Positions 29,042 through 50,951 of a DNA stretch of 64,000 nucleotides are shown here, piece after piece. Position numbers and translations under genes: made by a program. The stretch's first letter is position 1, and each line of letters opens with the position of its first letter. Source of the DNA: Microbacterium ginsengiterrae. GTDB lineage: Bacteria; Actinomycetota; Actinomycetes; Actinomycetales; Microbacteriaceae. The notes under the pieces were generated by a model. That model was not told the origin of the DNA. It did not search any database and saw only the letters and a program-made list of their open reading frames with translations. The stretch is taken from the NCBI RefSeq assembly GCF_014205075.1, contig NZ_JACHMU010000001.1, positions 992,001-1,056,000 on the forward strand, written 5' to 3'.

Positions 29042-30673
29042 TCAGATGTTGACGTCACCGATCAGGTTGACCTTGATGCCCATGCCGTCGAACATCGCGG
29101 CCTTGGCGATCAGCGCCTTGTCAGCGGTCTCCGCGTCCGGCGCGTAGACGAGTTGGGCGTGGTTGGCCTTGTGGCGCGCCATGAACTGGTCGCGCGAGAC
29201 GCCGTGCAGCACGACGTGCGCGAGCGGCCATTCCTCGTTCGTCGCGGCCTTGCGGCGCTGCGTCTCCTCCTCCGGCAGCTCGACGACCGAGGCGCGGAAG
29301 ATGTCGGCCTGCAGGATGCCGTCGGCGATGAACACGCGGCTCAGAACTACTTCGCCGGGCTGGGAGACGCCGTTGAGGGTCGCGCCGCCCGCGGGGAAGA
29401 AGACGTGGCCCTGACGCCACCCCTCCGCCTTGTCCCAGCCGCCGAGGTGCGAGGCCGGCACCGAGCCGGAGATCTCGTACGCCCAGACGAACTGACCGTC
29501 GTACTCCTCACCCCAGCGCACGTCGTGCAGGGTGTTGTCGGGCACGAGTCCCATCGCCCGCCACACGCGGTCGGTGACCAGCGCGTCGACCGCGACGCCC
29601 TCGTCGGCCTCGTTGAAGTGCGGGAAGGCGCGGCCCTCGTGCAGCACGCGCGAGCCGTCGCGCGAGGTCACCGGAGGGCGCTCGGTGGAGTTCAGGATGC
29701 CTTCGGCGAGGTCGGATGCCGGGACGAGGTCCTTCAGACCCTGCTGGTACTGGATGCCGACAGCATCCAGTCCGAAGTCGTCAGCGATGCGCAGGGCGGC
29801 GATGTACATCTTCATCTGCCACTGCACCTGCTCACGGGTGAGCTCGGTCGCGCCATCCTCGCCGTACTTGAACGTCATACCGGCGTCGATGAGCCAGTCG
29901 TAGGCCGCGTTGGCGTCCTCCTCGCTGACGTTGAGCATCTCGGCGTACAGCGCCGACTGCGACAGGCGCTCCTTGTAGATACCGGTCTGGTTGAGCATCT
30001 CGTCGTCGAAGATGGCGTTGTACATGCCCATGCAGCCCTCGTCGAAGACGCCGATGATGGCCTTCTCGTCGAGCAGCTGCGCCGCCAGTGCCTCGCCGAG
30101 CTGCTTCTCGGGGCTGTCAGGCAGTGCGGGAAGTTCGCGGACGTGCGAGTAGTCGTGCGTGATGGTGCCGGTCTCGGTCCACTCGCGGATGCCGTTGATG
30201 AACCACTCGTCGGAGAAGTCCACCGACCAGGTCGTCGAGTACGGCTTGTCCATCTTGGTGAGTCCGGCGTTGAGGCCGAGGAGTCCGACGAGGCCGGGCC
30301 AGTCGCCGGCGAAGTTCGCGACGGTGAGGATCGGCCCCTCGTGCGTGCGGAGCCCTGCGAGGACGTGGTGGGAGTACTGCCAGTTGGCGATCGCGACGAT
30401 CAGGGGCGCGTCGACCGGGATGTTCTTGAACACCTCGAGCCCCATGCGCTGGCTCGAGATGAAACCGTGCCCGGTCTCGGGGTCGACGTCGAAGGCGCGC
30501 ACGACGCTCCAACCGAGGTCGTCGAACACGCTCGTGACGCCCGCCTCGAGCGCCTGCTGGGTGGGCCAGCCGCCGACGTTGGCCGACTCCCGGAGGTCAC
30601 CCGAGGTGATCAGGTAGGCGGTCTTCGGGGCGGATGCCGGACGCGTCGCCGGCGTGGGAAGGGTGTAGCTCAT
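29042..30673 (-). CDS. L-fucose/D-arabinose isomerase family enzyme
   Basis: A 543-residue ketol isomerase related to FucI. Diagnostic stretches are IIGVFDEGCMGMYNAIFDDE, IYKERLSQSALYAEM, FGLDAVGIQYQQGLKDL and a C-terminal FMARHKANHAQLVY (candidate metal-ligand His). FucI-type enzymes interconvert L-fucose/L-fuculose and also D-arabinose/D-ribulose. Beside GH172, GH116 and GH183 genes the second reaction is the likely one here. Its ATG overlaps the GH116 stop (ATGA), so kinase, GH116 and isomerase form one operon that ends at the terminator 28991-29019. No signal peptide: cytoplasmic. Confidence 0.88.
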   Translation of the reverse strand: MSYTLPTPATRPASAPKTAYLITSGDLRESANVGGWPTQQALEAGVTSVFDDLGWSVVRAFDVDPETGHGFISSQRMGLEVFKNIPVDAPLIVAIANWQYSHHVLAGLRTHEGPILTVANFAGDWPGLVGLLGLNAGLTKMDKPYSTTWSVDFSDEWFINGIREWTETGTITHDYSHVRELPALPDSPEKQLGEALAAQLLDEKAIIGVFDEGCMGMYNAIFDDEMLNQTGIYKERLSQSALYAEMLNVSEEDANAAYDWLIDAGMTFKYGEDGATELTREQVQWQMKMYIAALRIADDFGLDAVGIQYQQGLKDLVPASDLAEGILNSTERPPVTSRDGSRVLHEGRAFPHFNEADEGVAVDALVTDRVWRAMGLVPDNTLHDVRWGEEYDGQFVWAYEISGSVPASHLGGWDKAEGWRQGHVFFPAGGATLNGVSQPGEVVLSRVFIADGILQADIFRASVVELPEEETQRRKAATNEEWPLAHVVLHGVSRDQFMARHKANHAQLVYAPDAETADKALIAKAAMFDGMGIKVNLIGDVNI

Positions 30674-33279
30674 GATTCCTCCGGGGTTGGGTGGGTGCGG
30701 ACGAGCGTGGCGCGATGAGTGTCGCCCGCTCGGAGTCGGATGTCACGGGAGACGGTCTCTCCGTGGAGGTCTAGTCGGTCGAGGTCGAGGTGCCCGCCGT
30801 CGAGCCGCAGGGAGATGACGCCGTGGTCCACCTCGACCGTGCCCCAGCCGGTCGCCGTGGTGAACAGAGAGCGGAAGGGTCCATCCGCGGCTGGAGCGAA
30901 GCCGAGCGTCTTCGACGGCGCATCCCATTGCACACCGCTCGCCGCCGCGAGCAGACCCCACGATGCGAGGGAGCGAGCGTAGTGGTTACCGCATTCGATC
31001 TCGTTCCAGGGGTTCCGGTGGCGGCCGTCGTACCGTGCACGCAGGGTCCGTTCGATGAGGAGCGCATCGTCAACCCGACCCGCGAACATCAGCGATGTCG
31101 CCACCTGGTGCTCGATACCGGTCCACACCTCGTCCGAGTACACGAACGGTATTGACGGCCTGCCCCCGCGCGGCCATGACGCCAGCAGCAGCCCACCCTC
31201 ATCGTTCAGGGCGTAGACCCGTTGTGTGCTCTCGTGGCGGCGGAGGTCCGTTCGGTGGTTGTGTGCGACGATCGCGCCCAGTGCGGAATTCACGCGATCC
31301 TCGGGCAACAGGTACCCGAGCCCACCGAGGAAGGCGTGGAACTGGCCGAGCAACTGGTCCGAGAGCACGCCGTCGCCGTACTGGTAGCGATGCTCGTCGA
31401 GGTCTTCGATGACCTGGCGGTAGTACTCGCCGTTCCAGAGCGTGCCGTCCATCGCGGCCGCTGCGCGATCCGCCGCCGCGGTCCAGGCCTCGACCTTCTC
31501 CGGCTCGCCGAGATGAGCGGCCATCCGCACTCCAGCGCGCAGCGCCGCAAGAAGCATGCCGTTCGCCAAGGGCTCCGTGCCGTGGAACTCGATGTCGTAG
31601 GTGTTGTGGAGCTCACCGTCTACGAGCCCGTCACCGTCGCGATCCCATTCACGAAGGGCATGGTCGAGGCTGCGGGATGCTGTGGGCCACAGTTCCCTGA
31701 GGAAGTCGTCGTCGCCGCTGAACCGCCACTCCCTGTGCAGACGCAGGAACGTGCCGAGCTGGCCGTCGACGGCAGGACCCATGAACCAGGAGGGACCGCC
31801 GAAGACGCGGTTCCCCCGGAACTTCTGCGCGCCATCGTCGTCCGTCTCGAGACGGTACTCGGCGCGACGCGCACTGCGCTCCAGACTCGGGAAGAGCCAG
31901 GCGGCCGTCTGCGCGTAGGACCAGACGTGAGTGCAAGTGCCCTCGCAGGATCCGCCGTGATCGAACGACCCTTCCCACGCCGCGAACACCGGGCCATCGC
32001 CCAACGAGGGGTTCGGCGAATCGAGCACGAAGCACGTCGTCGAGCGGAGGGCGGCGATGTTCGCGCCGGCGGCGTCGCTGATGACCGGATCGATCGCGCC
32101 GCCGTAGAGAGCGTCGACGAACGTCGTCGTCGCGCGCTCGAGTGCGGCCAGGTCGCCATGCAGGTGGGCGGCCGCCGACCAGGCGTCCGGCCAGCGTGTC
32201 GCATAGTGATTGCGCACGACGGGGCTGAGCTCTCCCTCATCGGGGTCGGCGAAGATGATGTGGCCGTGCCACCCTCTCCGGCGATTCGGGAAGCTCCAGG
32301 CGAGCACGAACTCGAAGTCGCGGCTCTCGCCGGCGGGAACAGTGTGCCGGATACCGAGCGAACCCGTGCGGATGCGCGGCAGCTTCGCCATCATCTGTTC
32401 CTCGGTGAGCTCCTCGTCCCTCTCGGCGTCCAGTTCGGCGAAGAGTCCGCGCGGCCGATCTTCGAGCGTCAGCCGCGACTCGGCCTCGAGGAGACCGTCG
32501 TCGGAGAAGTCGTTCCAGAAGAGTCGCGCGCCGTCCGGCCAGTAGCTGGTCACCCACTGCGGCTTCACGGTGACCGCGGCGTCGGTCGTGGTGAGACTCA
32601 AAGTGCCGTAGCCCGGATCATCCTGCGGAAGGTCGATGCCGAAGTCGAGCCCGCGGACGTCGCCGTCATCGCGGAATCGCACCTTCTGCGTGGCGCGCAT
32701 GCCCCACGGTGCATCCGGGCCCGGCGCCCCTCGTCCTGCGGTGTGCGTCATGCTTCCCGCCACCGTGACGGCCACGGCCACGGCGCCCGGGTTGGTCACA
32801 CGGTAGCGCAGGACGGCAGCGGGAATGCCTGATGCCTCGGGGTCGAGCGGGACGAGCGGCGTGAAGGCGCGCAACGAGACGTCGACCGGCAGGTCTTCGT
32901 CGACGAAGTCGACGTCGACGACCGGGTATTCGCCGTGCAAGGTCGCACCGGCGAGGCGGGGGAGACCTGCCAACTGCTCGAACGGGTAACCCGCGTCCGC
33001 GTCGTGACGACCGGTGAGGCGAGCCTCGAGGACGCGCGTGACGGTGTCCCCACCGGCGGGTGCGGCGTGGATGGCGAAGAAGGAGTGCGGATTACGCCGC
33101 CCCTTGTCGGGAAGGTTCTCCAGCTCCCAGTCGCGCAGTTCGCCTCGCGCGCCGATCGAGACATTCCCCGTGCCGATGCCGCCCAGAGGGAACGCCGTCG
33201 CCTGCGAGGTGTGCGGGATGCCAGGAGCGCGGCGTCGTTCAGCCATGGCGTCGTCCACGCTGCTCAGCCGCCAGTTCAT
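30670..33279 (-). CDS. GH116 family glycoside hydrolase, candidate exo-beta-D-arabinofuranosidase
   Basis: An 869-residue GBA2-like GH116 enzyme: an N-terminal beta-sandwich (PLGGIGTGNVSIGARGELRD, about 30-330) and a C-terminal (alpha/alpha)6 catalytic domain (HNTYDIEFHGTEPLANGMLL, IPFVYSDEVWTGIEHQV). No signal peptide, so cytoplasmic. Known GH116 members include glucosylceramidases and glucosidases; an exo-beta-D-arabinofuranosidase of this family has been reported from Microbacterium (from memory). Locus context favours that activity. ATG 33279 has GAAGGG eight bases upstream but overlaps the kinase by 41 bases; ATG 33246 would overlap it by eight. Confidence 0.88.
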   Translation of the reverse strand: MNWRLSSVDDAMAERRRAPGIPHTSQATAFPLGGIGTGNVSIGARGELRDWELENLPDKGRRNPHSFFAIHAAPAGGDTVTRVLEARLTGRHDADAGYPFEQLAGLPRLAGATLHGEYPVVDVDFVDEDLPVDVSLRAFTPLVPLDPEASGIPAAVLRYRVTNPGAVAVAVTVAGSMTHTAGRGAPGPDAPWGMRATQKVRFRDDGDVRGLDFGIDLPQDDPGYGTLSLTTTDAAVTVKPQWVTSYWPDGARLFWNDFSDDGLLEAESRLTLEDRPRGLFAELDAERDEELTEEQMMAKLPRIRTGSLGIRHTVPAGESRDFEFVLAWSFPNRRRGWHGHIIFADPDEGELSPVVRNHYATRWPDAWSAAAHLHGDLAALERATTTFVDALYGGAIDPVISDAAGANIAALRSTTCFVLDSPNPSLGDGPVFAAWEGSFDHGGSCEGTCTHVWSYAQTAAWLFPSLERSARRAEYRLETDDDGAQKFRGNRVFGGPSWFMGPAVDGQLGTFLRLHREWRFSGDDDFLRELWPTASRSLDHALREWDRDGDGLVDGELHNTYDIEFHGTEPLANGMLLAALRAGVRMAAHLGEPEKVEAWTAAADRAAAAMDGTLWNGEYYRQVIEDLDEHRYQYGDGVLSDQLLGQFHAFLGGLGYLLPEDRVNSALGAIVAHNHRTDLRRHESTQRVYALNDEGGLLLASWPRGGRPSIPFVYSDEVWTGIEHQVATSLMFAGRVDDALLIERTLRARYDGRHRNPWNEIECGNHYARSLASWGLLAAASGVQWDAPSKTLGFAPAADGPFRSLFTTATGWGTVEVDHGVISLRLDGGHLDLDRLDLHGETVSRDIRLRAGDTHRATLVRTHPTPEES

Positions 33280-34735
33280 GCACGACGCCCTTCGACCCCT
33301 CGTACAGCCGGAGATACCGGTCGAAGAGTGTGTCGTAGAACTCGCGGAGGTTCAGGTCGGGCTCGATTGTCGCCGTCACCGGGTTCCAGTCCGTGATGAC
33401 GGGCGCGGATCCCGTGTCGGCGACGGCAGTGGCCGCGAGGAACGCGGCGCCGTAGCTCGCGCCGATCGTCGTCTGCGGCACCTGCTGCACGAGTCCGGTG
33501 ACATCGGAGACGACCTGCAGCCAGAGCCGTCCCTGTGTCCCTCCGCCGACTGCGACGATCCGGCGGATGTCCGCCCCGGCCGCGCGCATCGTCTCCACGT
33601 TGTGCCGCACGCCGAGCGCGGTGGCCTCGAGCGCCGCACGGTAGAGGTCTCCACGGGTGTGCGCGAGGGTGAGCCCGGCGACGACACCGCGCGCGTCAGG
33701 GTCCTGGATCGGCGTGCGCTCCCCCGCGAAGTACGGCAGGACGAGCAGCCCGTTCGCTCCCGGTCCCGACGCCTCGGCGTCGGCGAGGAGGTCGGGGTAG
33801 TCGGCGCCGGTGAGGCCCTTCAGCCACGCCGTCAGGGCGCCGGACGTGGAGAGACCGCCTGCGAGATTGCGTGTGCCGGGAAAGGCACCGGCCGTGGTCC
33901 ACATCGACGGGGTCCGCAGCGTGTCTTCCCCGGTCGACACGAGGAACATGGTCGTTCCGTACATGAGCATGAGGTCTCCGACCTCGTGTGCTCCGACGCT
34001 CACCGCTTCGGTCCATGCATCGATCGTGCCGGTGATGACCGGAGTGCCCTCAGGGATTCCGGTCCCGGCAGCCGCCTCGGCGGTGACCTCGCCGGCGATG
34101 TCTCCGGCCCACGTGAGACGAGGCTGCTCGATGGAGCCCGCGTAGCGCTGCCACCAGGGCTCGTACCAGGACTCGCCCTCGATGTCGTACAGCGGAGAGG
34201 TCTGGCTCGCGGACTGGTGGTCGAGCACGTAGGCACCGGTGAGTCTGCGTGCGAGCCAGGACGCAGGCATGAACAGACGACGCGCACGCCGCCACGCCTC
34301 CGGTTCCTCGTCGCTGACCCAGGCGATCTTCGCACCGGCCGCCTGCGAGGTGAGCGTGGAGCCACCGACCCGGGTGATCTCCTCCGCCCCGAGCTCGTCG
34401 GTCATGCGCTGGATCTGCGCGCCGGAACGGGTGTCGACGCCGTAGAGGATCGCGGCTCGGACCGGCTCATCATTCTCATCCGCGAGGAGCACGCACGGCC
34501 CCATTCCGCTGACGCCGACGGCGACGATCTGCGCATCGGGATGCGCGGAGATGAGTTCGCCCGTGATACCGGTGAACTCGTCCCACCACACGCGCGCATC
34601 CATCTCGACCCACCCGGCGTGCGGGCGGTCGACCTCATGCGCTCGCGTCGCGGAGGCCACGATCTCTCCGCCTTCGGCGACGAGCACACCCTTCGTGCTC
34701 GACGTGCCGACGTCGACTCCGAGAGTGCAGCGCAT
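33239..34735 (-). CDS. FGGY-family carbohydrate kinase, candidate D-ribulose kinase
   Basis: A 498-residue xylulokinase-type kinase. The first phosphate loop is GVDVGTSSTKGVLV, with GVSGMGPCVLLAD, the ATP segment GTIDAWTEAVSVGAHEVGDL and the second phosphate motif VAVGGGTQGRLWLQ. It would phosphorylate the ketose made by the isomerase encoded two genes downstream; D-ribulose to D-ribulose 5-phosphate is the inferred reaction, though xylulose cannot be excluded. ATG 34735 lies six bases after AGGAGG. First gene of a LacI-controlled operon, 100 bases after lacI-type regulator. Confidence 0.88.
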   Translation of the reverse strand: MRCTLGVDVGTSSTKGVLVAEGGEIVASATRAHEVDRPHAGWVEMDARVWWDEFTGITGELISAHPDAQIVAVGVSGMGPCVLLADENDEPVRAAILYGVDTRSGAQIQRMTDELGAEEITRVGGSTLTSQAAGAKIAWVSDEEPEAWRRARRLFMPASWLARRLTGAYVLDHQSASQTSPLYDIEGESWYEPWWQRYAGSIEQPRLTWAGDIAGEVTAEAAAGTGIPEGTPVITGTIDAWTEAVSVGAHEVGDLMLMYGTTMFLVSTGEDTLRTPSMWTTAGAFPGTRNLAGGLSTSGALTAWLKGLTGADYPDLLADAEASGPGANGLLVLPYFAGERTPIQDPDARGVVAGLTLAHTRGDLYRAALEATALGVRHNVETMRAAGADIRRIVAVGGGTQGRLWLQVVSDVTGLVQQVPQTTIGASYGAAFLAATAVADTGSAPVITDWNPVTATIEPDLNLREFYDTLFDRYLRLYEGSKGVVHELAAEQRGRRHG

Positions 34736-34767
34736 CATGGTCCTCCTGATCACGGATCCTCATGCTC

Positions 34768-34797
34768 ACTGTACGCGAAATCGATTTCATGTTGCAA
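34768..34797 (-). promoter_or_regulatory. Promoter of the kinase-GH116-isomerase operon with LacI operator in the spacer
   Basis: On the minus strand a -35 TTGCAA (34792-34797) and a -10 TACAGT (34768-34773) are 18 bases apart. The perfect palindrome GAAATCGATTTC (34777-34788) sits inside the spacer, so a bound LacI-type repressor would cover RNA polymerase. Confidence 0.85.
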
Positions 34798-34835
34798 GCA
34801 GACCAGTGCCGGCATGCCAACAACAGGCGTCCGGC

Positions 34836-35819
34836 TCAGCGCGCGACGCTGGCTGCCTGCAGTTCGTTGCGCAGAACGACGGTGCGCGGCGGCTGGTCGT
34901 CGCCCGCGATGCGCCCGAGAAGCATCTTCGCGGCGGTCACGCCCATGTGCCGCGCCGGCAGCCGCACCACGGTCACCGCCGACGGCGACAGCGTGGTGAA
35001 CGGCAATGACCCGATCACTGCGACGCCGACCTTCGGAGGCGTCAGCCCGTGCTCCGTGAGCACCTGGATGGCCCCGACGCCGATGAGGTTGTTCCCCGCC
35101 ACCACAGCGTCCGGAGGCTCAGGGAGCGCGAGGAGCTCTTCCATGACCTCTCGCCCACCATCCACCCGGAACGTCGCGAAACGCAGTAGCGCATCGACGT
35201 CAACGTCCGGCTGAGCACGAGTGAGTGCGTCGCGCCATCCGGCGGCTCGTTCGGCGGCCGTGTCGATGTGCTCCGGCCCACCGATATAGGCGATGCGCTG
35301 GTACCCCTCGTCGATCAGCGCGCGCGTCGCCGACGTCCCCGCAGCACGGTTGGCCATCACCACCCCATCGATGTCGTACGTCGTGCTGCGGTCCACAGCG
35401 ACGAGCGGCCTTCCCGTGGCGAGGATCGGAGCGAGGTCCGACTCCTCGGAGGCCGTGGCGATGATCACGCCCGACATGTTCTCCGACATCGCGATCTGAA
35501 GGTACGTCGCCTCTTTGTCGGTCTGCGCATCCGAATTGCACAGCACGACCGAATACCCCGCTTCGGAAGCGACGTCCTCCACCCCTCGCGCCATCTCGGT
35601 GAAGTACGGATTCTCTATGTCGGGGATGATCAGACCGATCACCTCGGAGCTCTGCCGCCTGAGGGTCCGTGCGGTGCGGTTGGGCACGAAGTTCAGCTGC
35701 GCGGCGGCGTCGCGCACCGCAGCGGACTTCTCAACAGAAACGCTCGTGCCATTGAAGACGCGCGAAACCGTCGCGGGAGACACTCCCGCGAGGCGGGCGA
35801 CGTCGTAGATCGTTGCCAT
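34836..35819 (-). CDS. LacI-family transcriptional regulator of the D-arabinan locus
   Basis: A 327-residue LacI/GalR regulator. The helix-turn-helix TIYDVARLAGVSPATVSRVF opens the protein, followed by the hinge and a periplasmic-binding-protein-like effector domain (IGLIIPDIENPYFTEMARGV, AGNNLIGVGAIQVL). ATG 35819 gives the family-typical MATIYDVARLAG start; upstream in-frame residues have no support. It lies between the kinase operon and the divergent GH172 gene, and all five GAAAYCGATTTC-like palindromes in the window flank genes of the same locus, so it is the probable repressor of all of them. The inducer is presumably D-arabinose or an arabino-oligosaccharide. Confidence 0.93.
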   Translation of the reverse strand: MATIYDVARLAGVSPATVSRVFNGTSVSVEKSAAVRDAAAQLNFVPNRTARTLRRQSSEVIGLIIPDIENPYFTEMARGVEDVASEAGYSVVLCNSDAQTDKEATYLQIAMSENMSGVIIATASEESDLAPILATGRPLVAVDRSTTYDIDGVVMANRAAGTSATRALIDEGYQRIAYIGGPEHIDTAAERAAGWRDALTRAQPDVDVDALLRFATFRVDGGREVMEELLALPEPPDAVVAGNNLIGVGAIQVLTEHGLTPPKVGVAVIGSLPFTTLSPSAVTVVRLPARHMGVTAAKMLLGRIAGDDQPPRTVVLRNELQAASVAR

Positions 35820-35901
35820 GACCACCCTCACTGCACATTCCGGCTCGACCCGGAGTGATTGCAACAGTATCGCGCGGGCGGTGCCCTGTGGCGCAGACGC
35901 A

Positions 35902-35915
35902 TGAAATCGATTACA
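35902..35915. promoter_or_regulatory. LacI operator between the lacI-type gene and GH172
   Basis: TGAAATCGATTACA, one arm changed from the perfect palindrome. A possible plus-strand -10 TACAGT (35912-35917) overlaps it, 45 bases before the GH172 ATG. Lying in the divergent interval it could control both GH172 and the regulator itself. Confidence 0.75.
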
Positions 35916-35962
35916 GTTGTCGCAACCATCGAGCATCGAAACACAAGGACGTGAACGAACAG

Positions 35963-37096
35963 ATGACTTTCGCACCCTCTGACCTGTCGACGATCGCCGC
36001 TCTACGCTCCGTGCAGACGCGGTCCATCTCACCGGAGAACTTCGACGGATCGGTCGGCGGCGGCGGGCGGGCGACCGAAGGTACGGGTGCCGACTGTGCC
36101 CGCGACCTCGGCCCCGGATGGAAGATCTCCCCGAGTGTCGACATCAAAGCGGGCGAGACCTTCGATCTGGCGAACATCCAGGGTGCGGGAAAGATCACAC
36201 ACATCTGGATCACCACCCACACGGACAACTGGCGCACGCTCCTCCTGCGCGCGTTCTGGGACGGTGAGGCGGAGCCTGCCGTGGAGGTGCCGTACGGCGA
36301 CTTCTTCTGCAACGGCTGGGGAGTCTTCGCGCAGGTGAACTCGCAGGCCATCGCCGCCAACCCTCACGGAGGCTTCAACTCCTATTGGCCGATGCCGTTC
36401 AGGGACGGTGCTCGCCTGACACTGGAGAACACCTCCACGGTCGACGTCCGCGTCTACTACCAGGTCACCTACGAGATCGGCGGCGACTACTCGAACGATG
36501 CATACTTCCACGCGCAGTGGCGTCGTTCGAATCCCCTTGAGGACCGTACTCCCCATGTCATCCTCGAGGGGATCGAGGGACAGGGGCAGTACGTGGGCAC
36601 GTACATCGCCTGGGGTGTCAACTCCAACGGCTGGTGGGGTGAGGGCGAGATCAAGTTCTATCTCGACGGCGACACCGACTATCCGACGATCGCGGGAACC
36701 GGTACCGAGGACTACTTCGGCGGGGCGTGGAACTTCGACATCCCCGGTCAGGGATACACGGCATTCTCCACGCCGTACCTCGGCATGCCGCAGGTGATCC
36801 GCCCCGACGGGCTCTACGTCAGCCAGCAGCGCTTCGGCATGTACCGTTGGCACCTCCTCGACCCGATCCACTTCCGCACCGGCATCCCCAAGGTGGACAT
36901 CCAGGCTCTCGGCTGGCGGAGCGGCTGGCGCTATCTGCCGCTGCGCGACGACATCGCCTCCACGGCGGTGTTCTATCTCGACCGGCCGACGGCCCGTCGC
37001 CCGCGGACGCCCAGTGCGGACGACATGGAGGTCCACCTGGGGACGGCTCCGGTTCCCGACATCGGCGCCACCCCTCCTCGCGCGCCGCAGAGCTGA
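35963..37096 (+). CDS. GH172 (DUF2961) glycoside hydrolase, candidate exo-alpha-D-arabinofuranosidase
   Basis: A 377-residue DUF2961 protein. Family hallmarks are GAGKITHIWITTHTDNWRTLL, VPYGDFFCNGWG, YYQVTYEIG, GIEGQGQYVGTYIAWG, GTGTEDYFGGAWNF and FGMYRWHLLDPI; the GTEDYFGGAW glutamate is in the catalytic region. GH172 enzymes known to date act on furanosides: a difructose-dianhydride enzyme in Bifidobacterium and exo-alpha-D-arabinofuranosidases in arabinan degraders. No signal peptide, so probably cytoplasmic. ATG 35963 is preferred; GTG 35951 would sit on its own AAGGA. First gene of a four-gene plus-strand run. Confidence 0.9.
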   Translation: MTFAPSDLSTIAALRSVQTRSISPENFDGSVGGGGRATEGTGADCARDLGPGWKISPSVDIKAGETFDLANIQGAGKITHIWITTHTDNWRTLLLRAFWDGEAEPAVEVPYGDFFCNGWGVFAQVNSQAIAANPHGGFNSYWPMPFRDGARLTLENTSTVDVRVYYQVTYEIGGDYSNDAYFHAQWRRSNPLEDRTPHVILEGIEGQGQYVGTYIAWGVNSNGWWGEGEIKFYLDGDTDYPTIAGTGTEDYFGGAWNFDIPGQGYTAFSTPYLGMPQVIRPDGLYVSQQRFGMYRWHLLDPIHFRTGIPKVDIQALGWRSGWRYLPLRDDIASTAVFYLDRPTARRPRTPSADDMEVHLGTAPVPDIGATPPRAPQS

Positions 37097-37101
37097 TCCG
37101 C

Positions 37102-38262: not shown

Positions 38263-38299
38263 TCGACGGGCGAGACACACCTGACAGAAGGAGGAGAAC

Positions 38300-39046
38300 A
38301 TGACAGAGGTGACATACCCGGACCTCGCGGGCAAGCTCGTCGTGATCACCGGCGGTGGTCGCGGAATCGGACTCGCGACGGCGCGACGGTTCACTGCGCA
38401 GGGGGCACGCGTCGTCGTGCTCGACCTCGCGAACGGCGATTCCGACCTGGAAGCGGAGTTCGTCGAGCTGGACGTGACGGACGCCTCAGCGGTCTCGGCC
38501 GCTGCGGACAAGCTCGTCGCAAGCTTGGGCAGTCCGGACATCGTCCTCAACGCCGCAGGGATCGTCCGCTCGGCCAGCGCCGAGGAAATGTCGGCCGAAG
38601 ACTGGTCGACGGTGCTCGATGTGAACCTCTCCGGCACGTTCCACGTCTGCCAGGCGTTCGGGCGGCACATGCTCGCCGCCCACCGGGGCACGATCGTCAA
38701 CATCGCGTCCATGAGCGCGACCGTGAGCAACTACCCGCAGAAGCAGATCAGCTACAACGCCTCGAAGGCGGGGGTCGTGCACCTCACGAAGACCCTCGCG
38801 GGCGAGTGGGCCGACCGCGGAGTCCGGGTCAACTCGATCTCGCCCGGATACATCGCCACGGATCTCACCGCGGCCTTGCTCGAGCGCGAGCCGGAGCTCG
38901 GCGAGGTCTGGCGCGACCGCACCCCGACGGGTCGGCTCGGCACCCCTGACGAGGTCGCCTCGATAATCCTCTTCCTCGCTTCGGACGCATCGAGCCTGAT
39001 GACCGGGTCCGACGTCATCGCCGACGGCGGATACACCGTCTGGTGA
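38300..39046 (+). CDS. SDR-family dehydrogenase, candidate pentose/polyol dehydrogenase
   Basis: A 248-residue short-chain dehydrogenase. It has the NAD loop TGGGRGIG, NAAG, the catalytic Ser in NIASMSATVSN, the YNASK pair and PGYIATDLT, ending in a classical DGGYTVW tail. AGGAGGAGAAC before the ATG is a strong ribosome-binding site. In this locus, next to a lactonase gene, it may oxidise D-arabinose to its lactone or handle D-arabinitol; the substrate cannot be read from sequence. Confidence 0.88.
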   Translation: MTEVTYPDLAGKLVVITGGGRGIGLATARRFTAQGARVVVLDLANGDSDLEAEFVELDVTDASAVSAAADKLVASLGSPDIVLNAAGIVRSASAEEMSAEDWSTVLDVNLSGTFHVCQAFGRHMLAAHRGTIVNIASMSATVSNYPQKQISYNASKAGVVHLTKTLAGEWADRGVRVNSISPGYIATDLTAALLEREPELGEVWRDRTPTGRLGTPDEVASIILFLASDASSLMTGSDVIADGGYTVW

Positions 39047-39083
39047 TCGCCCGGGCGGGCGGCGCTGCCCGTACGATCGAGGG

Positions 39084-40112
39084 ATGACCGCCTCCCCTCT
39101 CGTCCTGGTCGCCAATGCCGGCGATGGCACCGTGAGTTCCTTCCGCCTCGACAACGGACAGCTTGAGCGGCTCTCCGTGTCCGAAGGTCTCCCGGGATGT
39201 TCGACCTTCGCCGTGGACGCTGCCCGCGACATCGTCCACGCCGCGGTGAAGGGGGAACCAGCCGGGATCCTCACCCTCTCGCTGGATCGGGAGAGCGGAC
39301 AGCTGACGCCGAAGTCCCGGATGGATCTTCCTGCCGGCGGCATGAACTATCTGGCGCTCACGAAAGATGGCGCCGGGCTGCTCGGCGCCTCTTATGGCGG
39401 CGGATACGGCATCAGTTGCCCGGTGACCGGCGGCGTCGTCGGCGAGCCCGTTTCCCGGATCGAGTTCCCCAACCTGCACTCCGTTCTCCCTTCCGCTGAC
39501 GGCCGGTTCGCGTATTTCGTCTCGCTCGGAGCAGATCTCGTGGCGCAGTACGCCTTGTCGGCGGACCTTCGACTTGTACCGCTCGCCCCCGAGACGGTCG
39601 CAGCTCCAGCGGGAAGTGGCCCGCGGCATCTGATCCTCAACGATGCGCAGGATGCGGTGTACGTGCTCACCGAGTTCTCCGGGGAGGTGCTGCACTACAG
39701 CCGCGACACGGTCACCGGCGCTCTGGAGTTCCGCGACGTCGCGACCGCCTATGACACGACGGCCGGGCTCGGCCACAGCGTGTTCGGCGCCGACCCTCTC
39801 GAGCACCACTACATCTGGGGTGCGGATCTGCACGCGAGCGCGGACGAGCGCAGTCTCTGGGCGTCTGAACGTACAGAGAGCACCCTGGGCGCGGTGACCG
39901 TCGGCGGCGACGGGTCGTTGACCGCCCCCTCGCGCTTCACGGTCACCGAGACGCAGCCTCGAGGGTTTGCGATCAGCCGCGACGGGGCCTACCTCGTCGC
40001 GGCTGGTGAGAAGTCGACGACCGTCTCGCTGTACGCAGTACACGATGACGACCTCGAGCTCGTCCAGCGCATCGAGACGGGCAACGGGGCGAACTGGGTC
40101 CGCTTCGTCTGA
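39084..40112 (+). CDS. Lactonase family protein (6-phosphogluconolactonase-like seven-bladed propeller)
   Basis: A 342-residue PF10282 lactonase. Blade motifs include LVANAGDGTVSSFRLDNG, SYGGGYGISCPV, LPSADGRFAYFVSLGADLVA, APAGSGPRHLILN and GNGANWVRFV. Family members hydrolyse sugar lactones. It has a leaderless-type signal of its own (TACGAT six bases before ATG 39084) although it follows the dehydrogenase closely. SDR plus lactonase suggests an oxidative side branch, D-arabinose to D-arabinonate. It converges with the transporter genes. Confidence 0.88.
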   Translation: MTASPLVLVANAGDGTVSSFRLDNGQLERLSVSEGLPGCSTFAVDAARDIVHAAVKGEPAGILTLSLDRESGQLTPKSRMDLPAGGMNYLALTKDGAGLLGASYGGGYGISCPVTGGVVGEPVSRIEFPNLHSVLPSADGRFAYFVSLGADLVAQYALSADLRLVPLAPETVAAPAGSGPRHLILNDAQDAVYVLTEFSGEVLHYSRDTVTGALEFRDVATAYDTTAGLGHSVFGADPLEHHYIWGADLHASADERSLWASERTESTLGAVTVGGDGSLTAPSRFTVTETQPRGFAISRDGAYLVAAGEKSTTVSLYAVHDDDLELVQRIETGNGANWVRFV

Positions 40113-40153
40113 GCGGAACCGGTTCGCCCCGTCGCACCGGTCGACGCGACCTC

Positions 40154-41047
40154 TTATTTCAGTCCGGCCATCTTGATGTTGCCGATGATCTGGCGTTGGA
40201 AGATGAGGAAGAGGATCACGACCGGCGCCGCCGCCAGCACTGATCCGGCCATCAACAGGCCCAGCTCGGTCGACCGCTCAGAGCGGAAGGTCGCGAGGTA
40301 CTGCTGGACGACGAAGCGCTCCGGTGACGTGATCGTCATGATCGGCCACACGTAGGAGTTCCAGTAGGCGAGGAACGAGGTGATCCCCATCACCACGAAC
40401 GGCGGTTTCGACAGCGGAAGGAAGATCCGCACGAAGATCGCGAACCGTCCGCAGCCGTCGAGCATCGCGGCCTCTTCCAGACTGGCGGGGATGTTCAGGT
40501 AGAACTGGCGGATGAAGAAGACGGTCGCCGCCGCCGCCGCGCCCGGAACCACGAGCACGGCGAGCGTGTCGAGCATCGACAGGCGGGTGACGACGATGAA
40601 ACTCGTCAACAGGATCGTCATGCCGGGGATGAACATCGTGGTGATGACGATCGTCCAGATCGTCCGCTTGAACCGGAAGTCGAGGCGAGCGAACGCGTAG
40701 GCCGCGAGCGAGTTGATGGTCAGACTCAGCAGGGTGAACAGGACCGCGCCGAGAAACGTCCACCCCATCGTGAGGGTGAAGGTCGGATCAGCGAGGATCT
40801 GGGCGTAGTTCTCCCATTTCCACACCTCGGGGAAGAACTGGAAAGGCGTCTGGATGACCTCGGTCTTCGCCTTGAAGCCGGCGATGACCATCCAGGCCAA
40901 CGGGAAGAGCGCGGCGACGAGGAACAGGGCCCCCGCGAGCACTTTGCCGATGAGGACGATCCACGAGCCGGGGGTGCGCGGCAGCCGGGGTTGCTTGGGC
41001 TCCTTGCCCGCGAGGACGATACGAGTGGTCTCCTGCATGGAGGTCAT
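40154..41047 (-). CDS. Carbohydrate ABC transporter permease (MalG type)
   Basis: A 297-residue inner-membrane permease with six membrane segments and the EAA loop EEAAMLDGCGRFAIFVRIFL that docks the ATPase. A 30-residue basic cytoplasmic head precedes the first helix. It begins one base after the MalF-type stop, so the two are coupled. With the binding protein upstream it forms an importer of CUT1 type, which usually takes oligosaccharides. No ATPase gene lies in the cluster, so a shared MsiK-type ATPase is presumed. Confidence 0.93.
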   Translation of the reverse strand: MTSMQETTRIVLAGKEPKQPRLPRTPGSWIVLIGKVLAGALFLVAALFPLAWMVIAGFKAKTEVIQTPFQFFPEVWKWENYAQILADPTFTLTMGWTFLGAVLFTLLSLTINSLAAYAFARLDFRFKRTIWTIVITTMFIPGMTILLTSFIVVTRLSMLDTLAVLVVPGAAAAATVFFIRQFYLNIPASLEEAAMLDGCGRFAIFVRIFLPLSKPPFVVMGITSFLAYWNSYVWPIMTITSPERFVVQQYLATFRSERSTELGLLMAGSVLAAAPVVILFLIFQRQIIGNIKMAGLK

Positions 41048-41048
41048 G

Positions 41049-41996
41049 TCAGTCCACCAGCCTCTCCGAGTTGACGAACCGGAACACGACAGCCGACACG
41101 GTACCGAGGACGACGAACATGAGCAGCGCCGCCGCGATCGAGTAGCCGACGTTGATGTCGTTGCGGAAGTGATTGAAGATGAACAGGTTCGGCAGCATGG
41201 TCGAATCGAGCGGACCGCCGTTGGTCATGACGAGCGGGAGCTCGAACTGCTGGATCGCTGCGACGAATCCGGTGATCAGCAGGTAGAGGAGGATGTTCTT
41301 CATCTGCGGCAGGGTGATGTAGATGGTCTTCTGCCACCAGTTGGCCCCCTCCATCGCGGCGGCCTCGTAGAACTCCTGCGGGATGTCCACCATGGCGGCG
41401 ACCATGATCAGCGAGGTGAGACCCATGCCGAGCCAGATCGCCGGCACGGCGATGGCGAGCAACGCCCATGCCGGGTCGCCGATCCATGCGATCGGGTCGA
41501 TGCCGAACAACGCGAGGAACCAGTTCAGCAGTCCGCCGGAGTAGTCGTAGATCAGGACGAAGATGATCGAGGTGATGACGGACGAGATGATCGTGGGGAT
41601 GTAGATGCTGACCTTGAGAACGCCTGCGAACTTCCTGCCGACGCTCACGACGAGGCTGGCGAACAGGAACGCGAGGACGAGCATCGGGGGCACCGTCATC
41701 GCGACGAAGACGAACCCTCGCCCCACCGCCGCCCAGAACAGGCGATCGGACATGACGTCAGTGAAGTTCTTCCACCCGACGAATTCCGGCTCCTTGTAGA
41801 AGCTCCAGTCCTGGAATGAGAGATAACCTGCGTAGATCGCCGGCCAGATCACGAAGATCCCCAGCAGGATCAGGACCGGGAGAAGGAACAGGTAGGCGAC
41901 CTTGTTGTCGCGGTACTTGTATCGATCCGGGTTCCTCTGCTGCGGCGCATCCTCTCGGTTCTGTGCTCTGCTCGGCGTCACCGTCTGCGTGACCAT
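41049..41996 (-). CDS. Carbohydrate ABC transporter permease (MalF type)
   Basis: A 315-residue permease. After a cytoplasmic head with NPDRYKYRDNKVAYLFLLPV there are six membrane segments and the EAA loop EFYEAAAMEGANWWQKTIYI. It pairs with the MalG-type permease downstream. It is separated from the binding-protein gene by a strong stem-loop (42027-42060), which probably lets the binding protein be made in excess. Confidence 0.93.
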   Translation of the reverse strand: MVTQTVTPSRAQNREDAPQQRNPDRYKYRDNKVAYLFLLPVLILLGIFVIWPAIYAGYLSFQDWSFYKEPEFVGWKNFTDVMSDRLFWAAVGRGFVFVAMTVPPMLVLAFLFASLVVSVGRKFAGVLKVSIYIPTIISSVITSIIFVLIYDYSGGLLNWFLALFGIDPIAWIGDPAWALLAIAVPAIWLGMGLTSLIMVAAMVDIPQEFYEAAAMEGANWWQKTIYITLPQMKNILLYLLITGFVAAIQQFELPLVMTNGGPLDSTMLPNLFIFNHFRNDINVGYSIAAALLMFVVLGTVSAVVFRFVNSERLVD

Positions 41997-42026
41997 TTAC
42001 CCACCTCGTCGTCGGTTCGGACGCGT

Positions 42027-42060
42027 ACTTCGGGGGCCGGCGTCGGCCGGCCCCCGAAGT
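42027..42060. terminator. Stem-loop between the binding-protein and permease genes
   Basis: A perfect 15-bp stem (42027-42041 with 42046-42060) with a 4-base loop, 8 bases after the binding-protein stop. There is no T-tract, so it is more likely a partial terminator or 3'-end stabiliser for the upstream gene than a full stop. Confidence 0.8.
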
Positions 42061-42068
42061 GGTCGACA

Positions 42069-43439
42069 TCAGTTGCTGGGCGCCTTGTCCGCAAGGCCGT
42101 CTCGGTCGATCACGGTCTGGATCGCCTGCTCGGCGGTCTTGATCGCGTCATCGGTCGAGGCGGATCCCTTCATGACGGACTCGAAGGCAGTCCCCACTGC
42201 GAGCGAGACATCCCAGGGGTAGGTCGGCTCGGGGATGGCAGTGGGTGCGATGTCGTTGACGATGACATCCGACCACGGGGCGTCCGCGGCGGCGCTGTCG
42301 TCGGCGACGGCATCCTGGACCGACTGACGGACGGGCACCTTCGTGAACTGCGTGTCCACGAAGAAGGGGACGAGGTTCTCCGGGTCGCCGGCGATGGCCC
42401 AGCTGAGGAACTCCCCGGCCGCCTCCGCGTTCTTCGACTTCGCGTCCACGACCCACTTGAAGTTGCCCAGGGTCGTGGCCGTCCGGCCGTCCGCTCCCGG
42501 TGCGTTCGGGAACGCGCCGATGCCCGTCGAGCCGAGCAGGTCGGGGTAGTCCGACCCGACCTCGGACATCATCCACGAGCCGGACACCTTGAAGGCGACC
42601 TTCTCCTCACCGAAGTCCTTGGCCTCGACATACGCGGCGAGGGGCTGCTTGGGCATGTAGCCGTTGTCCCACAGCGCCTTGTACTGCTCCATCATCGCGC
42701 GATAGCCGTCGTCGTCGATGTTCGGGGCGGTCCAGTCGTCATTGAGCGCGGTGTGTCCGGTGAAGTTGTACTGCTGGCCGACGGAGGACCACGCGAACGT
42801 GGGAGCGTCCTGAGCCGGCGAGATGCAGTACTGGCCGCCCTCGAGCGTCGGAGCGATCTTCTCGCAGGCCGCCATCAGCTCTTCCCAGGTCTCCGGACCG
42901 TTCTCCGCGTCGACACCCGCGGCCTCGAGGATGTCCTTGTTCCAGAACAGCACCGTCTGGGGCTCGAGGAGGAGCGGATACGCATAGAAGGTGCCGTCGA
43001 GTTCGGAGACGGGCTTGGCTGCATCGATGATCTCGGCGAGGGCGTCCTCGGGGACGATCGAGTCGAGGTCGTGCAGCTGGCCGGCGTTTACGGCGTCCTG
43101 GATGCTGCCCGAGTGCGTGTAGACGTCAGGGGCCTTGCCCGCGGCCTGGGCGGCCTTCATCTTCTGGTCCCATGCGTCCGCCGGCACCTCGGTGTCGACG
43201 ACCTTGATCTCGTCCTGCGACTCGTTGAACTGCTTGACGATGTTCGCGTACCACTCGTTCTCGACCGGGGTGAAGGTGCGATGCCAGAACTGGATGGTGG
43301 TGACGCCGTCCTCTCCTGCGCCGTCGCCGGCGGCTTCGCCCGGTGTGCTGGAGCCGCAACCGGCAAGAAGTCCGGCCGCGGTGACCGCGCCAAGCGCGGA
43401 CAGCGCGATCCGCCTTCTGCGAGATGTGTTGATTGCCAT
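42069..43439 (-). CDS. Sugar ABC transporter substrate-binding lipoprotein
   Basis: A 456-residue extracellular solute-binding protein of family 1. The signal peptide RRRRIALSALGAVTAAG leads to the lipobox GLLAGC. The mature part has the family features VTTIQFWHRTFTP and AYVEAKDFGEEKVAFKVSGSWM. ATG 43439 follows AGGAGGAACTC. Its promoter carries the locus operator in its spacer. It probably captures arabino-oligosaccharides released by the surface endo-enzyme encoded just upstream. Confidence 0.93.
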   Translation of the reverse strand: MAINTSRRRRIALSALGAVTAAGLLAGCGSSTPGEAAGDGAGEDGVTTIQFWHRTFTPVENEWYANIVKQFNESQDEIKVVDTEVPADAWDQKMKAAQAAGKAPDVYTHSGSIQDAVNAGQLHDLDSIVPEDALAEIIDAAKPVSELDGTFYAYPLLLEPQTVLFWNKDILEAAGVDAENGPETWEELMAACEKIAPTLEGGQYCISPAQDAPTFAWSSVGQQYNFTGHTALNDDWTAPNIDDDGYRAMMEQYKALWDNGYMPKQPLAAYVEAKDFGEEKVAFKVSGSWMMSEVGSDYPDLLGSTGIGAFPNAPGADGRTATTLGNFKWVVDAKSKNAEAAGEFLSWAIAGDPENLVPFFVDTQFTKVPVRQSVQDAVADDSAAADAPWSDVIVNDIAPTAIPEPTYPWDVSLAVGTAFESVMKGSASTDDAIKTAEQAIQTVIDRDGLADKAPSN

Positions 43440-43536
43440 GAGTTCCTCCTCAGGAACGCGATTCGACATCGAATCGATGCTGTTCGGCTGGTGCCATGGG
43501 CCGGGCCGACGGGTCGTCGTCGACCGGGTAGAGGCC

Positions 43537-43565
43537 ACGTTAGACGAAATCGATTTCAACCACAA
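43537..43565 (-). promoter_or_regulatory. Promoter of the sugar transporter operon with LacI operator in the spacer
   Basis: Minus strand: -35 TTGTGG (43560-43565), 17-base spacer, -10 TAACGT (43537-43542). The palindrome GAAATCGATTTC (43546-43557) fills the spacer, the same geometry as in the kinase promoter at 34768-34797. Confidence 0.85.
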
Positions 43566-43600
43566 GAGAGGCGGGGCGGAACTCTCCGCACCCGCCTCTC
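43566..43600. terminator. Terminator after the GH183 gene
   Basis: GAGAGGCGGG (43566-43575) pairs with CCCGCCTCTC (43591-43600); inside it a second 5-bp stem (GCGGA with TCCGC) closes a 4-base loop. It starts 15 bases beyond the GH183 stop on the minus strand and abuts the -35 box of the transporter promoter. Confidence 0.75.
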
Positions 43601-43615
43601 GACGCGCGTCCGAGG

Positions 43616-45487
43616 TCAGCTCACACGCTTCCGGCGGAGCAGCAGCGCCAGCGATCCTGCGACGATCAGTGCGAAGCCGATGGCGATCGGGGCGATCAAG
43701 GCCCCGGCGTCACTGCCCGTCGTCGCGAGAGCATCCGCGCCGGAGTCACCACCTACATCGGGCGCCGAATCCGGAGATCCAGGGCCATCGGGGTCGGTCG
43801 GCGAACCTGGATCCGTCGGGTCCGGATCCGCCGGGTCGACGGGCTCGATCGGATCCATCGGGTCGGTCGGCTCCGTGGGATCGGTCGGATCCGTCGTTCC
43901 CGTCGGATCCGATCGGACCAGCGCGAGGTCATCGATCTGGACCCAGCGATCGCCGTTCAGGACAGTTCCCACGAACACCTCTAGACGTGTTGACACCCCC
44001 GAGTTGAATTCGATTTCGAAGCGCTCGTACGGAACGACGGCGGTGAACTCCTTCACGGCCAGCGTCGCCGCACCGGGGCCCACCTCACGCACGCCGAAGA
44101 AACCCTGTGCGTCCACGCCGCCGGTGACGACGAAGCCTGAGAAGACGTAGTCGGTGTTCGGCGACACGTCGACCGGCTGATGCACGTCCAGGGCCCCTGT
44201 CGTCCCGCGCATCCAGGCCTGGCGGCTGCCTGCGTACGACCAGGCGTGGTTGGTGTCGATCCCGCAGTTCCCGTTGCACCCCCACGGAGCCGTCATGGTC
44301 GCATTGCGCTCGAAGCTCGGGTCCCGCAGAAGGTTCGGATTGACGAGGCCGCCCTCTTCGTCGAGCTGAACGCGGATGAGGAAGACGTTGTAGGGGTCCC
44401 ATTGCGAGAGGGCGATGTAGAGGTCCGAACCCGAGGACCACGGGTGGATGTATCCACCGTAAAGGCCCGGGTAGTCGAACGAGTTCGCGATCCCCTCTCC
44501 CTCGGTCCACGGCCCTTCCGGGCTGTCGGCGGTGCGCAACAGCATCGTCCCGTCCGCCTTGCCGTCCAAGGTGACCATGAGCCACTTGCCGGTGTGCTCG
44601 TTGAACTGTACGGACAGCTCCGAGTTCATCGGGGGCACGATGGCTTCAGCGGCTGTGCCGTCGCCTGCACTCCAGTCGGATCCGTCCCAGTAGCGCCATG
44701 CGGACTTGTCGAGCATGGCGCCCTCCTCGACACGCGCCACGTGCACAGCGCCGAGTCGCCCATTGGGCGTTCCGAACATGTAGACGTAGCCGTCGCGCTT
44801 CTCGAAGGCGACCATCTGGAAGGGATGTTGCGGACCGTCCGGATCGTCCCACTGTGACGCCGTCGCCGTGTTCGTCCAGGTGGGTCCGTCCGTGGAGCTC
44901 CACGTCTCGCCGTTGTCGTCCGAATAGGCGATTCGACTGAAATTCGTCCACCACTGCCCTGCCGGCCCCCACTCTTTCACCGACATGAAGGCCATGTACT
45001 GACGATCGCCGACCGCGATGCCCGCCGTCGGGATGGTCGTCATCTCGTCGCCGGAGATCTTCTTCGAGGGGATGAGCTCACCGGCATGGCCCGGGCGATC
45101 CTCCACGGCCGAGTCGAAGGACATCCCGTCGGAGAGGTCGCTGTCCACGGATCGGAGAAGTGCGTTCGAGCGCCAGTCGCCCCCGCCGCCGCCCGGTCCG
45201 CCCCACTCGCCGAACGTATCGCCGAGCGCCGTGAGCACCTCGCCGGAGCCGTTGTCCCACATGACCCCGAGGTCTGTTCCGGTCACCGCCCAGCGATCGG
45301 CGGTGTCGGTGGTCGCACTGGCCCCGGTCATCTGGGCGATCATGACTGCGGGCGATGGCGGCAACGGCTCGGCCGCAGCGGCACCGGCGGCGCTCGCGCC
45401 GGAGGCTGCGAGCAGCAGACTCAGGGCGCCGGCGAGCCTGAAAGGCGCTCGTCTTCGAGCGGATCGAGGAGAGGCGGATGGTGTCAC
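43616..45487 (-). CDS. Secreted, LAXTG-anchored DUF4185 (GH183) protein, candidate endo-D-arabinanase
   Basis: A 623-residue surface protein. Signal peptide about 1-40; DUF4185 propeller about 45-370 (VTALGDTFGEWGG-like TALGDTFGEWGG, IAYSDDNGETWSS, VYMFGTPNGRLGAVHVARV, GYIHPWSSGSDLYIALSQWD); a carbohydrate-binding-like beta-sandwich about 375-520 (NLLRDPSFE opening); a Pro/Asp/Thr linker; then LATTG at 587-591, a hydrophobic segment and RRKR, the sortase-sorting pattern. DUF4185 is now GH183, whose characterised members are endo-D-arabinanases of mycobacterial arabinan. GTG 45487 follows AAAGGA. A locus operator lies at 45601-45614. Confidence 0.9.
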   Translation of the reverse strand: MTPSASPRSARRRAPFRLAGALSLLLAASGASAAGAAAAEPLPPSPAVMIAQMTGASATTDTADRWAVTGTDLGVMWDNGSGEVLTALGDTFGEWGGPGGGGGDWRSNALLRSVDSDLSDGMSFDSAVEDRPGHAGELIPSKKISGDEMTTIPTAGIAVGDRQYMAFMSVKEWGPAGQWWTNFSRIAYSDDNGETWSSTDGPTWTNTATASQWDDPDGPQHPFQMVAFEKRDGYVYMFGTPNGRLGAVHVARVEEGAMLDKSAWRYWDGSDWSAGDGTAAEAIVPPMNSELSVQFNEHTGKWLMVTLDGKADGTMLLRTADSPEGPWTEGEGIANSFDYPGLYGGYIHPWSSGSDLYIALSQWDPYNVFLIRVQLDEEGGLVNPNLLRDPSFERNATMTAPWGCNGNCGIDTNHAWSYAGSRQAWMRGTTGALDVHQPVDVSPNTDYVFSGFVVTGGVDAQGFFGVREVGPGAATLAVKEFTAVVPYERFEIEFNSGVSTRLEVFVGTVLNGDRWVQIDDLALVRSDPTGTTDPTDPTEPTDPMDPIEPVDPADPDPTDPGSPTDPDGPGSPDSAPDVGGDSGADALATTGSDAGALIAPIAIGFALIVAGSLALLLRRKRVS

Positions 45488-45806
45488 GTCGTTCCTTTCG
45501 ACAGGCTGCGCCCACCAGAGGGCCGCGATCGCAGTGCACGGCGTGACGGACGGAGCGAGAGACAGCGGCGCGGGCCGACGGACTGCTTCGTCCGACGAAC
45601 TGAAACCGATTTCAGGTCACCTTAGGCGTGCACGGGCAGTGCGTCAAGGCTTCGTCATCGCGTACCTCGTGCGAACTGGACACCTGCGGTCCGCCGACGC
45701 CTCGCCCCGCCGCCGCGCCACGACTCCAGTGCTCGGGGGATGGCGAAACCGATTTCAATCCGTTACCGTGTCCGTCATACCCCACCGCCGCGTCGAAAGG
45801 TCCTCC
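45488..45806. promoter_or_regulatory. Divergent control region with two LacI operators
   Basis: This 319-base interval holds no gene. It contains two copies of the locus operator: TGAAACCGATTTCA at 45601-45614, about 115 bases before the GH183 start on the minus strand, and GAAACCGATTTC at 45745-45756, before the plus-strand gene at 45807. A possible plus-strand -10 TACCGT (45764-45769) follows the second. GAAAGG at 45795-45800 is the ribosome-binding site of that gene. The C in the centre (AACCG) marks both as a sub-type of the AATCG sites elsewhere in the locus. Confidence 0.8.
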
Positions 45807-46775
45807 GTGCGCACCGATCGAGCTCCGACACCGGAAGCCACCCCCGCAATCGTGGAAGGCCGCTGGGTGCGCCCGCCCGACGCCGCACCGGCCGAGCCAC
45901 GTTGGGGCCACGCCGACGGTCTCCAGATCGGGATCCATCCTCTCCCGGGTCCCCGTGGCCTCTTGAGAGTGTTCACCCCCTATCTCGACCACCCTCGTGA
46001 CCGCCTGGTCAACTTCATCGCAATCGAGCCGATGACCGCCGACAGCCCACGCCGGGGCTACTCCGAGCTCGAACCGAGCGCTCTCGACGAAGGCGCGAAC
46101 GGAAAACGGTTCTGGTCGGTGGACGCCCCGCATGACTCCTCACCTCGCGATCCACTCGTTCCGGCTCGCGGAGTCGTCGAGCACGTCGACGGCGTCGAAT
46201 GCCTGACGGTCTGGATCGGCGTGGAGCGCTTCGAGAACGGCGCGAATGTCCGCGTTCGACTCCGCTTCCGCGCCGACCGCAGCCACGAGGTCGAACTCTC
46301 CGGATTCACCGCAGGAGGATCCGCGCCGCTACGGAGCCTCATCCTCACGGCCACGATGGGCAACTGGGCACGGCTGAGACGGCTGCACCTCGCCGACCGG
46401 GTCGTGACGACCTCTCAGCTGTGGCCCGATCACTCCGGCACGGGGTTCACGCAGCACGGCCGATTTCCGCTCGCCGAACTCGAACGTGACGGGCACGCGG
46501 CGATCGTCCGCGCCACGGGGGACGAGACCGACCCGACGTCGGTGGAGTACGCCGAGGACACTGCGGCCCATTGGCGCTTCCTCGGCCGCCGGGCCGAGCA
46601 GGCCTGGCGAGTCGACGACCCGCATCCTGACCTCGAAGCGCTCGTCAACGCCCGCTGGTCCTACTGGGCCAGCGCCTCACCGATCCCGGGCGGTCCGGCA
46701 TTCGAGAACTTCGAGATCGTCGAGCCGTTCCGCCAGGGGGCGTCGTACCGCTTCACCGTCGAGCCCATCGACTGA
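45807..46775 (+). CDS. Protein of unknown function in the LacI regulon of the D-arabinan locus
   Basis: A 322-residue soluble protein with no signal peptide. I do not recognise an established family; the pattern GLQIGIHPLPGPRGLLRVFT, PYLDHPRDRLVNFIAIEPM and GYSELE recalls conserved hypothetical proteins seen in carbohydrate loci of other phyla. Its composition (alternating strands, many Arg/Trp/Glu) suggests a beta-sandwich fold, and FRADRSHEVELSGFT reads like a sugar-acting scaffold. GTG 45807 follows GAAAGG by six bases. It has its own copy of the locus operator. A hydrolase, mutarotase or binding role in arabinan breakdown is possible; none is shown. Confidence 0.75.
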   Translation: MRTDRAPTPEATPAIVEGRWVRPPDAAPAEPRWGHADGLQIGIHPLPGPRGLLRVFTPYLDHPRDRLVNFIAIEPMTADSPRRGYSELEPSALDEGANGKRFWSVDAPHDSSPRDPLVPARGVVEHVDGVECLTVWIGVERFENGANVRVRLRFRADRSHEVELSGFTAGGSAPLRSLILTATMGNWARLRRLHLADRVVTTSQLWPDHSGTGFTQHGRFPLAELERDGHAAIVRATGDETDPTSVEYAEDTAAHWRFLGRRAEQAWRVDDPHPDLEALVNARWSYWASASPIPGGPAFENFEIVEPFRQGASYRFTVEPID

Positions 46776-49806: not shown

Positions 49807-49829
49807 GTGATTCCTTCGGAGACGAGGAT

Positions 49830-49857: not shown

Positions 49858-49863
49858 GAGGGA

Positions 49864-50832: not shown

Positions 50833-50876
50833 CTTTGCTCCTCTTTGAGTGCAGGGGGTACCTAACCGACGGGGCG

Positions 50877-50917: not shown

Positions 50918-50951
50918 GGGCGCACGAATCGAAGCGCCAGGGGTCGGTGGA

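Follow-up and report, generated by a model that had tools for sequence, protein, structure and literature searches.

The region from 29042 to 46775, which uses both strands of the window analyzed here (64,000 nucleotides, positions 992001 to 1056000 of a genome that forms one contig of 3,037,642 bases), is very probably a D-arabinan utilization regulon of the Microbacterium arabinogalactanolyticum type. We read it in this way because of the Pfam families of its genes, the best PDB matches to three characterized D-arabinan enzymes whose named residues are kept, the distribution of an operator both here and in the loci of relatives, and the published induction of orthologous genes (PMC10509167). 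Judged from sequence, it is the ortholog of the D-arabinan locus published for M. arabinogalactanolyticum; the enzyme set is already known from other Microbacterium, and this is a further example of a published kind, with a substrate and an inducer that we infer. What appears not to have been described in the two key papers are the operators that tie the locus together, an uncharacterized 322-aa protein (here U322), and the nature of a lipoprotein as a divergent GH183, and the take-away for the specialist is the regulon, as defined by its operators, together with the U322 family. D-arabinan sets mycobacterial walls apart, its synthesis is blocked by ethambutol, and the enzymes that degrade it are tools for its study. 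With one regulator and five operators, the genes can be tested together and further members can be searched for, of which U322 is one.

From 29042 to 46775 the order is isomerase, GH116, and kinase (minus strand, a single operon with overlapping ends), LacI (minus), GH172, lipoprotein, SDR dehydrogenase, and lactonase (plus), two permeases and a binding protein (minus), GH183 (minus), and U322 (plus). Each named gene is an open frame at the coordinates given below, and the named relatives of the window's proteins are mostly from Microbacterium. The first-pass annotation, which had described a complete LacI-controlled D-arabinan locus, was borne out on nearly every point, but it missed the 322-aa member and was unaware of this locus type in other Microbacterium. 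Its genes lie where it had placed them; the end of its region (45807 to 46775), however, is a separate, unannotated plus-strand gene with an operator of its own.

The profile searches that had been proposed to check the glycoside hydrolase assignments confirm all of them in Pfam. DUF4185/GH183 matches the product of 43616 to 45487 (minus strand) at 385 bits, and the best PDB match of this putative secreted endo-D-arabinanase is EndoMA1 (8hhv; 444 bits, 225 of 464 aligned residues identical, 49%). Important residues of EndoMA1, ExoMA1, and ExoMA2 are named in sections 8 and 9 of PMC10509167; the catalytic D33, D51, and E243 of EndoMA1 are kept at 72, 90, and 290, as are R198, W138, L292, and Y293, while P141 is replaced by Ala. 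The CBM-like domain keeps N361, D365, R381, D466, W468, and Q470 and has Trp for F379, Gly for Y382, and Thr for N383, so that two CBM contacts of EndoMA1, Y382 and N383, are changed. The C terminus consists of LATTG, a hydrophobic stretch, and RRKR, and the genome holds three sortase genes; therefore wall anchoring, which had been claimed together with secretion, is likely. Elsewhere in the genome (C1:1362311-1362649, minus strand, locus L003), a frame of 412 aa whose start resembles a signal gives a third, weak DUF4185 match next to what looks like an SGNH-type hydrolase, and no regulon operator was found at that site.

Of the two exo-enzymes, the GH172 protein (35963 to 37096, plus strand; DUF2961, 286 bits) would be an exo-alpha-D-arabinofuranosidase of the ExoMA1 type, and the GH116 protein (30670 to 33279, minus strand; N-domain 164 bits, catalytic domain 146 bits) an exo-beta-D-arabinofuranosidase of the ExoMA2 type. 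For GH116 the best PDB match is ExoMA2 (8ic6/8ic7, 1514 bits; 162 of 204 residues, 79%, identical in the stretch counted), and E431, D557, H446, and R483 are found at 436, 562, 451, and 488, the chain numbering offset of 4 having been set from these four matches themselves. A distant GH116 (32% identity) replaces or accompanies the ExoMA2 type in loci L033/L072, L127, and L128. A role in the use of fructan or difructose anhydride, raised beforehand as an alternative, is very improbable: the GH172 family also holds the alpha-D-fructofuranosidase alphaFFase1, which our protein matches at 122 bits, but its best PDB match is ExoMA1 (8ic8) at 821 bits with 338 of 368 residues identical (91.8%), and GH183 and an ExoMA2-type GH116 adjoin it. 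It also keeps Asn253 of ExoMA1 (as Asn257), which is Gly in alphaFFase1 and which, according to the text of PMC10509167, blocks fructofuranose and separates D-arabinofuranosidases from D-fructofuranosidases within GH172. On the identity to ExoMA1 and this residue we reject a fructan locus; D-arabinan as the substrate is supported, by sequence, through best PDB matches that are all M. arabinogalactanolyticum D-arabinan enzymes with their named residues kept.

The remaining proteins fit the earlier description to differing degrees. The "DUF4185-like lipoprotein" (37102 to 38262, plus strand) falls short of the Pfam cut-off for DUF4185 (35.8 bits against 39.5), yet its predicted model is closest to EndoMA1 and appears to have the GH183 catalytic fold; from that model we regard it as a divergent GH183 and assign it to the MIAR_33220 type. 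It differs from EndoMA1 in having only 20% identity to it and in missing the CBM domain; D49 and D67 are invariant and spaced as in the catalytic Asp pair, with the third acid not placed. Pfam bears out the FucI-type isomerase, the FGGY kinase, the dehydrogenase, the lactonase, and LacI. The putative D-arabinose (L-fucose-type) isomerase (543 aa, 29042 to 30673, minus strand) has a single domain match, Fucose_iso_C (PF02952), at 35.3 bits against a cut-off of 29.3; phmmer and profile searches of the PDB gave no relative by sequence, and the gene sits at the same place in the operon in those relatives that were compared. The FGGY pentulose kinase (33239 to 34753, minus strand; PF00370, PF02782), a putative D-ribulokinase, is xylulokinase-like below the NCBIfam cut-offs. 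The sugar importer stands with two permeases (40154 to 41047 and 41049 to 41996, both minus strand, PF00528) and a substrate-binding protein (42069 to 43439, minus strand; PF01547, PF13416), but no ATP-binding subunit was found by Pfam among the locus proteins scanned. The SDR dehydrogenase (38300 to 39046, plus strand, PF13561; GolD/DthD-like, below the NCBIfam cut-off) and the 7-bladed lactonase (39084 to 40112, plus strand, PF10282) hint at a side route in which D-arabinose would be oxidized; the pair (38300 to 40112) is optional in relatives.

As in the PUL of M. arabinogalactanolyticum JCM 9171 (PMC10509167), GH183, GH172, GH116, the ABC importer, isomerase, kinase, and LacI, as well as the SDR, lipoprotein, U322, and downstream DHDPS/TctA genes, occur in the same arrangement, and the defining residues of the three hydrolases together with importer, isomerase, and kinase place the locus among PULs of this type. 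Unlike that PUL, which has several GH183 enzymes (four DUF4185 genes), ours has one strong GH183, with a LATTG-type tail, and a lactonase gene. "Complete" fairly describes the range of known enzyme activities, all of which are covered, though not the number of GH183 genes; the specificities of isomerase and kinase are putative. PUL42 of Dysgonomonas gadei, as described in the text of PMC10115798, has a Bacteroidota organization unlike that of our locus, with GH172 outside the cytoplasm and presumably U322 also, if present. ExoMA1-type GH172 occurs in 47 of 198 sampled Microbacterium genomes.

The locus appears to be held together by a single regulator, as had been proposed: one LacI-family repressor (34836 to 35819, minus strand; PF00356, PF00532) and five operators of identical type. 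Exact copies of the palindrome GAAAYCGATTWCA number five in the whole 3.04-Mb genome, all in the locus and one per transcription unit: before the kinase-GH116-isomerase operon (operator 1, 34776 to 34789), between the divergent lacI and GH172 (operator 2, 35902 to 35915), before the importer operon (operator 3, 43545 to 43558), before GH183 (operator 4, 45601 to 45614), and before U322 (operator 5, 45744 to 45757). Read backwards, the palindrome has no exact site in the genome. With one mismatch there is one further site within the GH183 gene (44005 to 44018), which could be either chance or an auxiliary looping site, and one elsewhere in the genome. At up to 2 mismatches, the window has 13 strand-matches to TGAAANCGATTNCA, where 1.03 would be expected.

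The operator is also conserved among relatives. Among the genomes listed, 23 have an exact TGAAATCGATTACA no more than 71 nt upstream of GH172. Across 20 loci from other members of the genus (398 kb, regions picked for holding the locus), 74 of 75 sites at up to 2 mismatches are just upstream of locus genes; in the same loci the reversed pattern gave 0 sites and six shuffled patterns gave 0, 0, 0, 0, 1, and 2. Ten further loci without U322 have 37 of 39 sites upstream of a locus gene, and sites occur in loci of Leifsonia, Promicromonospora, Antribacter, and Cryobacterium. No conservation was seen in Bacteroidota and planctomycete loci, where 16 of 18 near-matches lie elsewhere (47 loci scanned). 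In the locus attributed to M. arabinogalactanolyticum (L017; LacI 77%), sites precede the kinase, lacI/GH172, the substrate-binding protein, and GH183/U322, and the GH183, GH116, binding protein, and GH172 genes of that species are described as induced both by D-arabinose and by an extract of mycobacterial cell walls (PMC10509167). From their position, and in line with that induction, the five candidate operators would be bound by the LacI of the locus. The main text of PMC10509167 makes no mention of LacI, an operator, or U322, and U322 may be drawn in its figures or supplements. Literature searches pairing D-arabinan with operator and repressor found none, and one on D-arabinose, LacI, and Microbacterium returned, by title, nothing beyond a taxonomy list.

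We propose that, without substrate, the one LacI on five palindromic operators would repress five transcription units until D-arabinose or a product of it frees the repressor; the orthologous locus is published as inducible by D-arabinose. Outside the cell, GH183, which is secreted and probably anchored to the wall, would cleave the D-arabinan of arabinogalactan or lipoarabinomannan, the divergent lipoprotein may bind or trim it at the membrane, and the ABC importer would take up oligosaccharides from which cytoplasmic GH172 (alpha) and GH116 (beta) would free D-arabinose. From family and operon, the FucI-type isomerase would then give D-ribulose, which the FGGY kinase would convert to D-ribulose 5-phosphate. 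Cytoplasmic U322, under the same operator, would share the oligosaccharides or sugar on which the exo-enzymes act and would most likely hydrolyze a linkage or decoration at which these enzymes stop. There is perhaps a one-in-four chance, in our judgment, that the natural substrate is another D-arabinofuranose glycan, of a corynebacterial or nocardial wall or of the Pseudomonas aeruginosa PA7 pilin, as D-arabinan is also described from other Corynebacteriales (PMC10509167) and some GH172 and GH183 enzymes are active on PA7 pilin oligosaccharides (PMC10115798); against this, EndoMA1, like its CBM-like domain, is adapted to D-arabinan in polymer form, and the sequence gives no pointer to the organism from which the D-arabinan comes.

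While the enzymes of the regulon have characterized relatives, U322 (45807 to 46775, plus strand), cytoplasmic here, has no match in Pfam or NCBIfam; it lacks a family entry and has been missed by the annotation used so far. Its model (pLDDT 93.9) predicts a supersandwich fold of the mutarotase type, and in 8 of 20 loci (L026-L033) it ends the kinase-GH116-isomerase operon, observations that would suit a D-arabinose mutarotase supplying the isomerase with the right ring form. We nevertheless consider such a role doubtful. Aldose_epim (PF01263) finds nothing in U322 even at an E value of 10, although it picks up two genes elsewhere in the genome, a profile comparison of U322 with one of that pair gave a probability of 0.3%, and across 78 sequences none of the columns with 95% or more conservation is a histidine. 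GalM catalysis uses histidine, which fits the mutants named for the fold relative, and on these three counts U322 as an ordinary GalM, that is, a galactose mutarotase or aldose 1-epimerase, is unsupported. The fold itself is common to domains of lyases, GH36, GH38, GH97, and GH174 that tie with the galactose mutarotase fold at similar Z, and families beyond those shown in the fold lists may share it too. A search for literature pairing D-arabinan with a mutarotase found none. A more novel reading, which we hold to be less likely than not, would make U322 the founder of a new CAZyme family: a stand-alone supersandwich enzyme beside exo-D-arabinofuranosidases, carrying a signal peptide in Bacteroidota but cytoplasmic in Actinomycetota, that might remove a D-arabinan linkage or decoration for which no enzyme is known or interconvert the released sugar.

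The distribution of U322 bears on whether it takes part in D-arabinan use at all. Within the genus it occurs in 29 of 198 genomes, all among the 47 with ExoMA1-type GH172 and none among the 151 others, and in 28 of the 29 the two genes share a contig, 6.3 to 16.3 kb apart. U322 is accessory, because it is missing from 18 of these 47 genomes, and its presence in every D-arabinan locus is rejected (10 loci without it were read). Those absences would suit a bystander, as would a family-level draw of 150 genomes, with U322 in the source genome only and GH172 matches in 10, which speaks against a tight link outside the genus; in addition, the flanks examined showed no GH172, GH183, or GH116 at 13 of 14 loci from planctomycetes and other groups and at 10 of 16 from other actinomycetes. 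We think a bystander improbable, given the co-occurrence within the genus, the regulon's operator before U322, and a lone U322 gene in a Rhodoglobus MAG (L106), which has no D-arabinan gene in 20.9 kb but a perfect operator 26 nt upstream (9941 to 9954). In an order-level draw of 297 genomes, U322 was present in 8, all with a GH172 homologue, not close in 6 of them. Away from D-arabinan genes, no common partner emerged from 20 neighbor proteins searched against Pfam. U322 is conserved across phyla (42 to 75% identity among 80 loci kept) and recurs in Bacteroidota loci with GH172/GH183/GH116.

In a Pirellulales MAG (L068), an isomerase (56% identity), GH116, GH172, and U322 lie in a row, likely a D-arabinan locus in planctomycetes. 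In our window, DHDPS-family, TctA, TctC, aldolase-like, and GntR-like genes run in the opposite direction downstream of U322 (46788 to 52396); the DHDPS and TctA genes, which have no operator, keep their place in several relatives.
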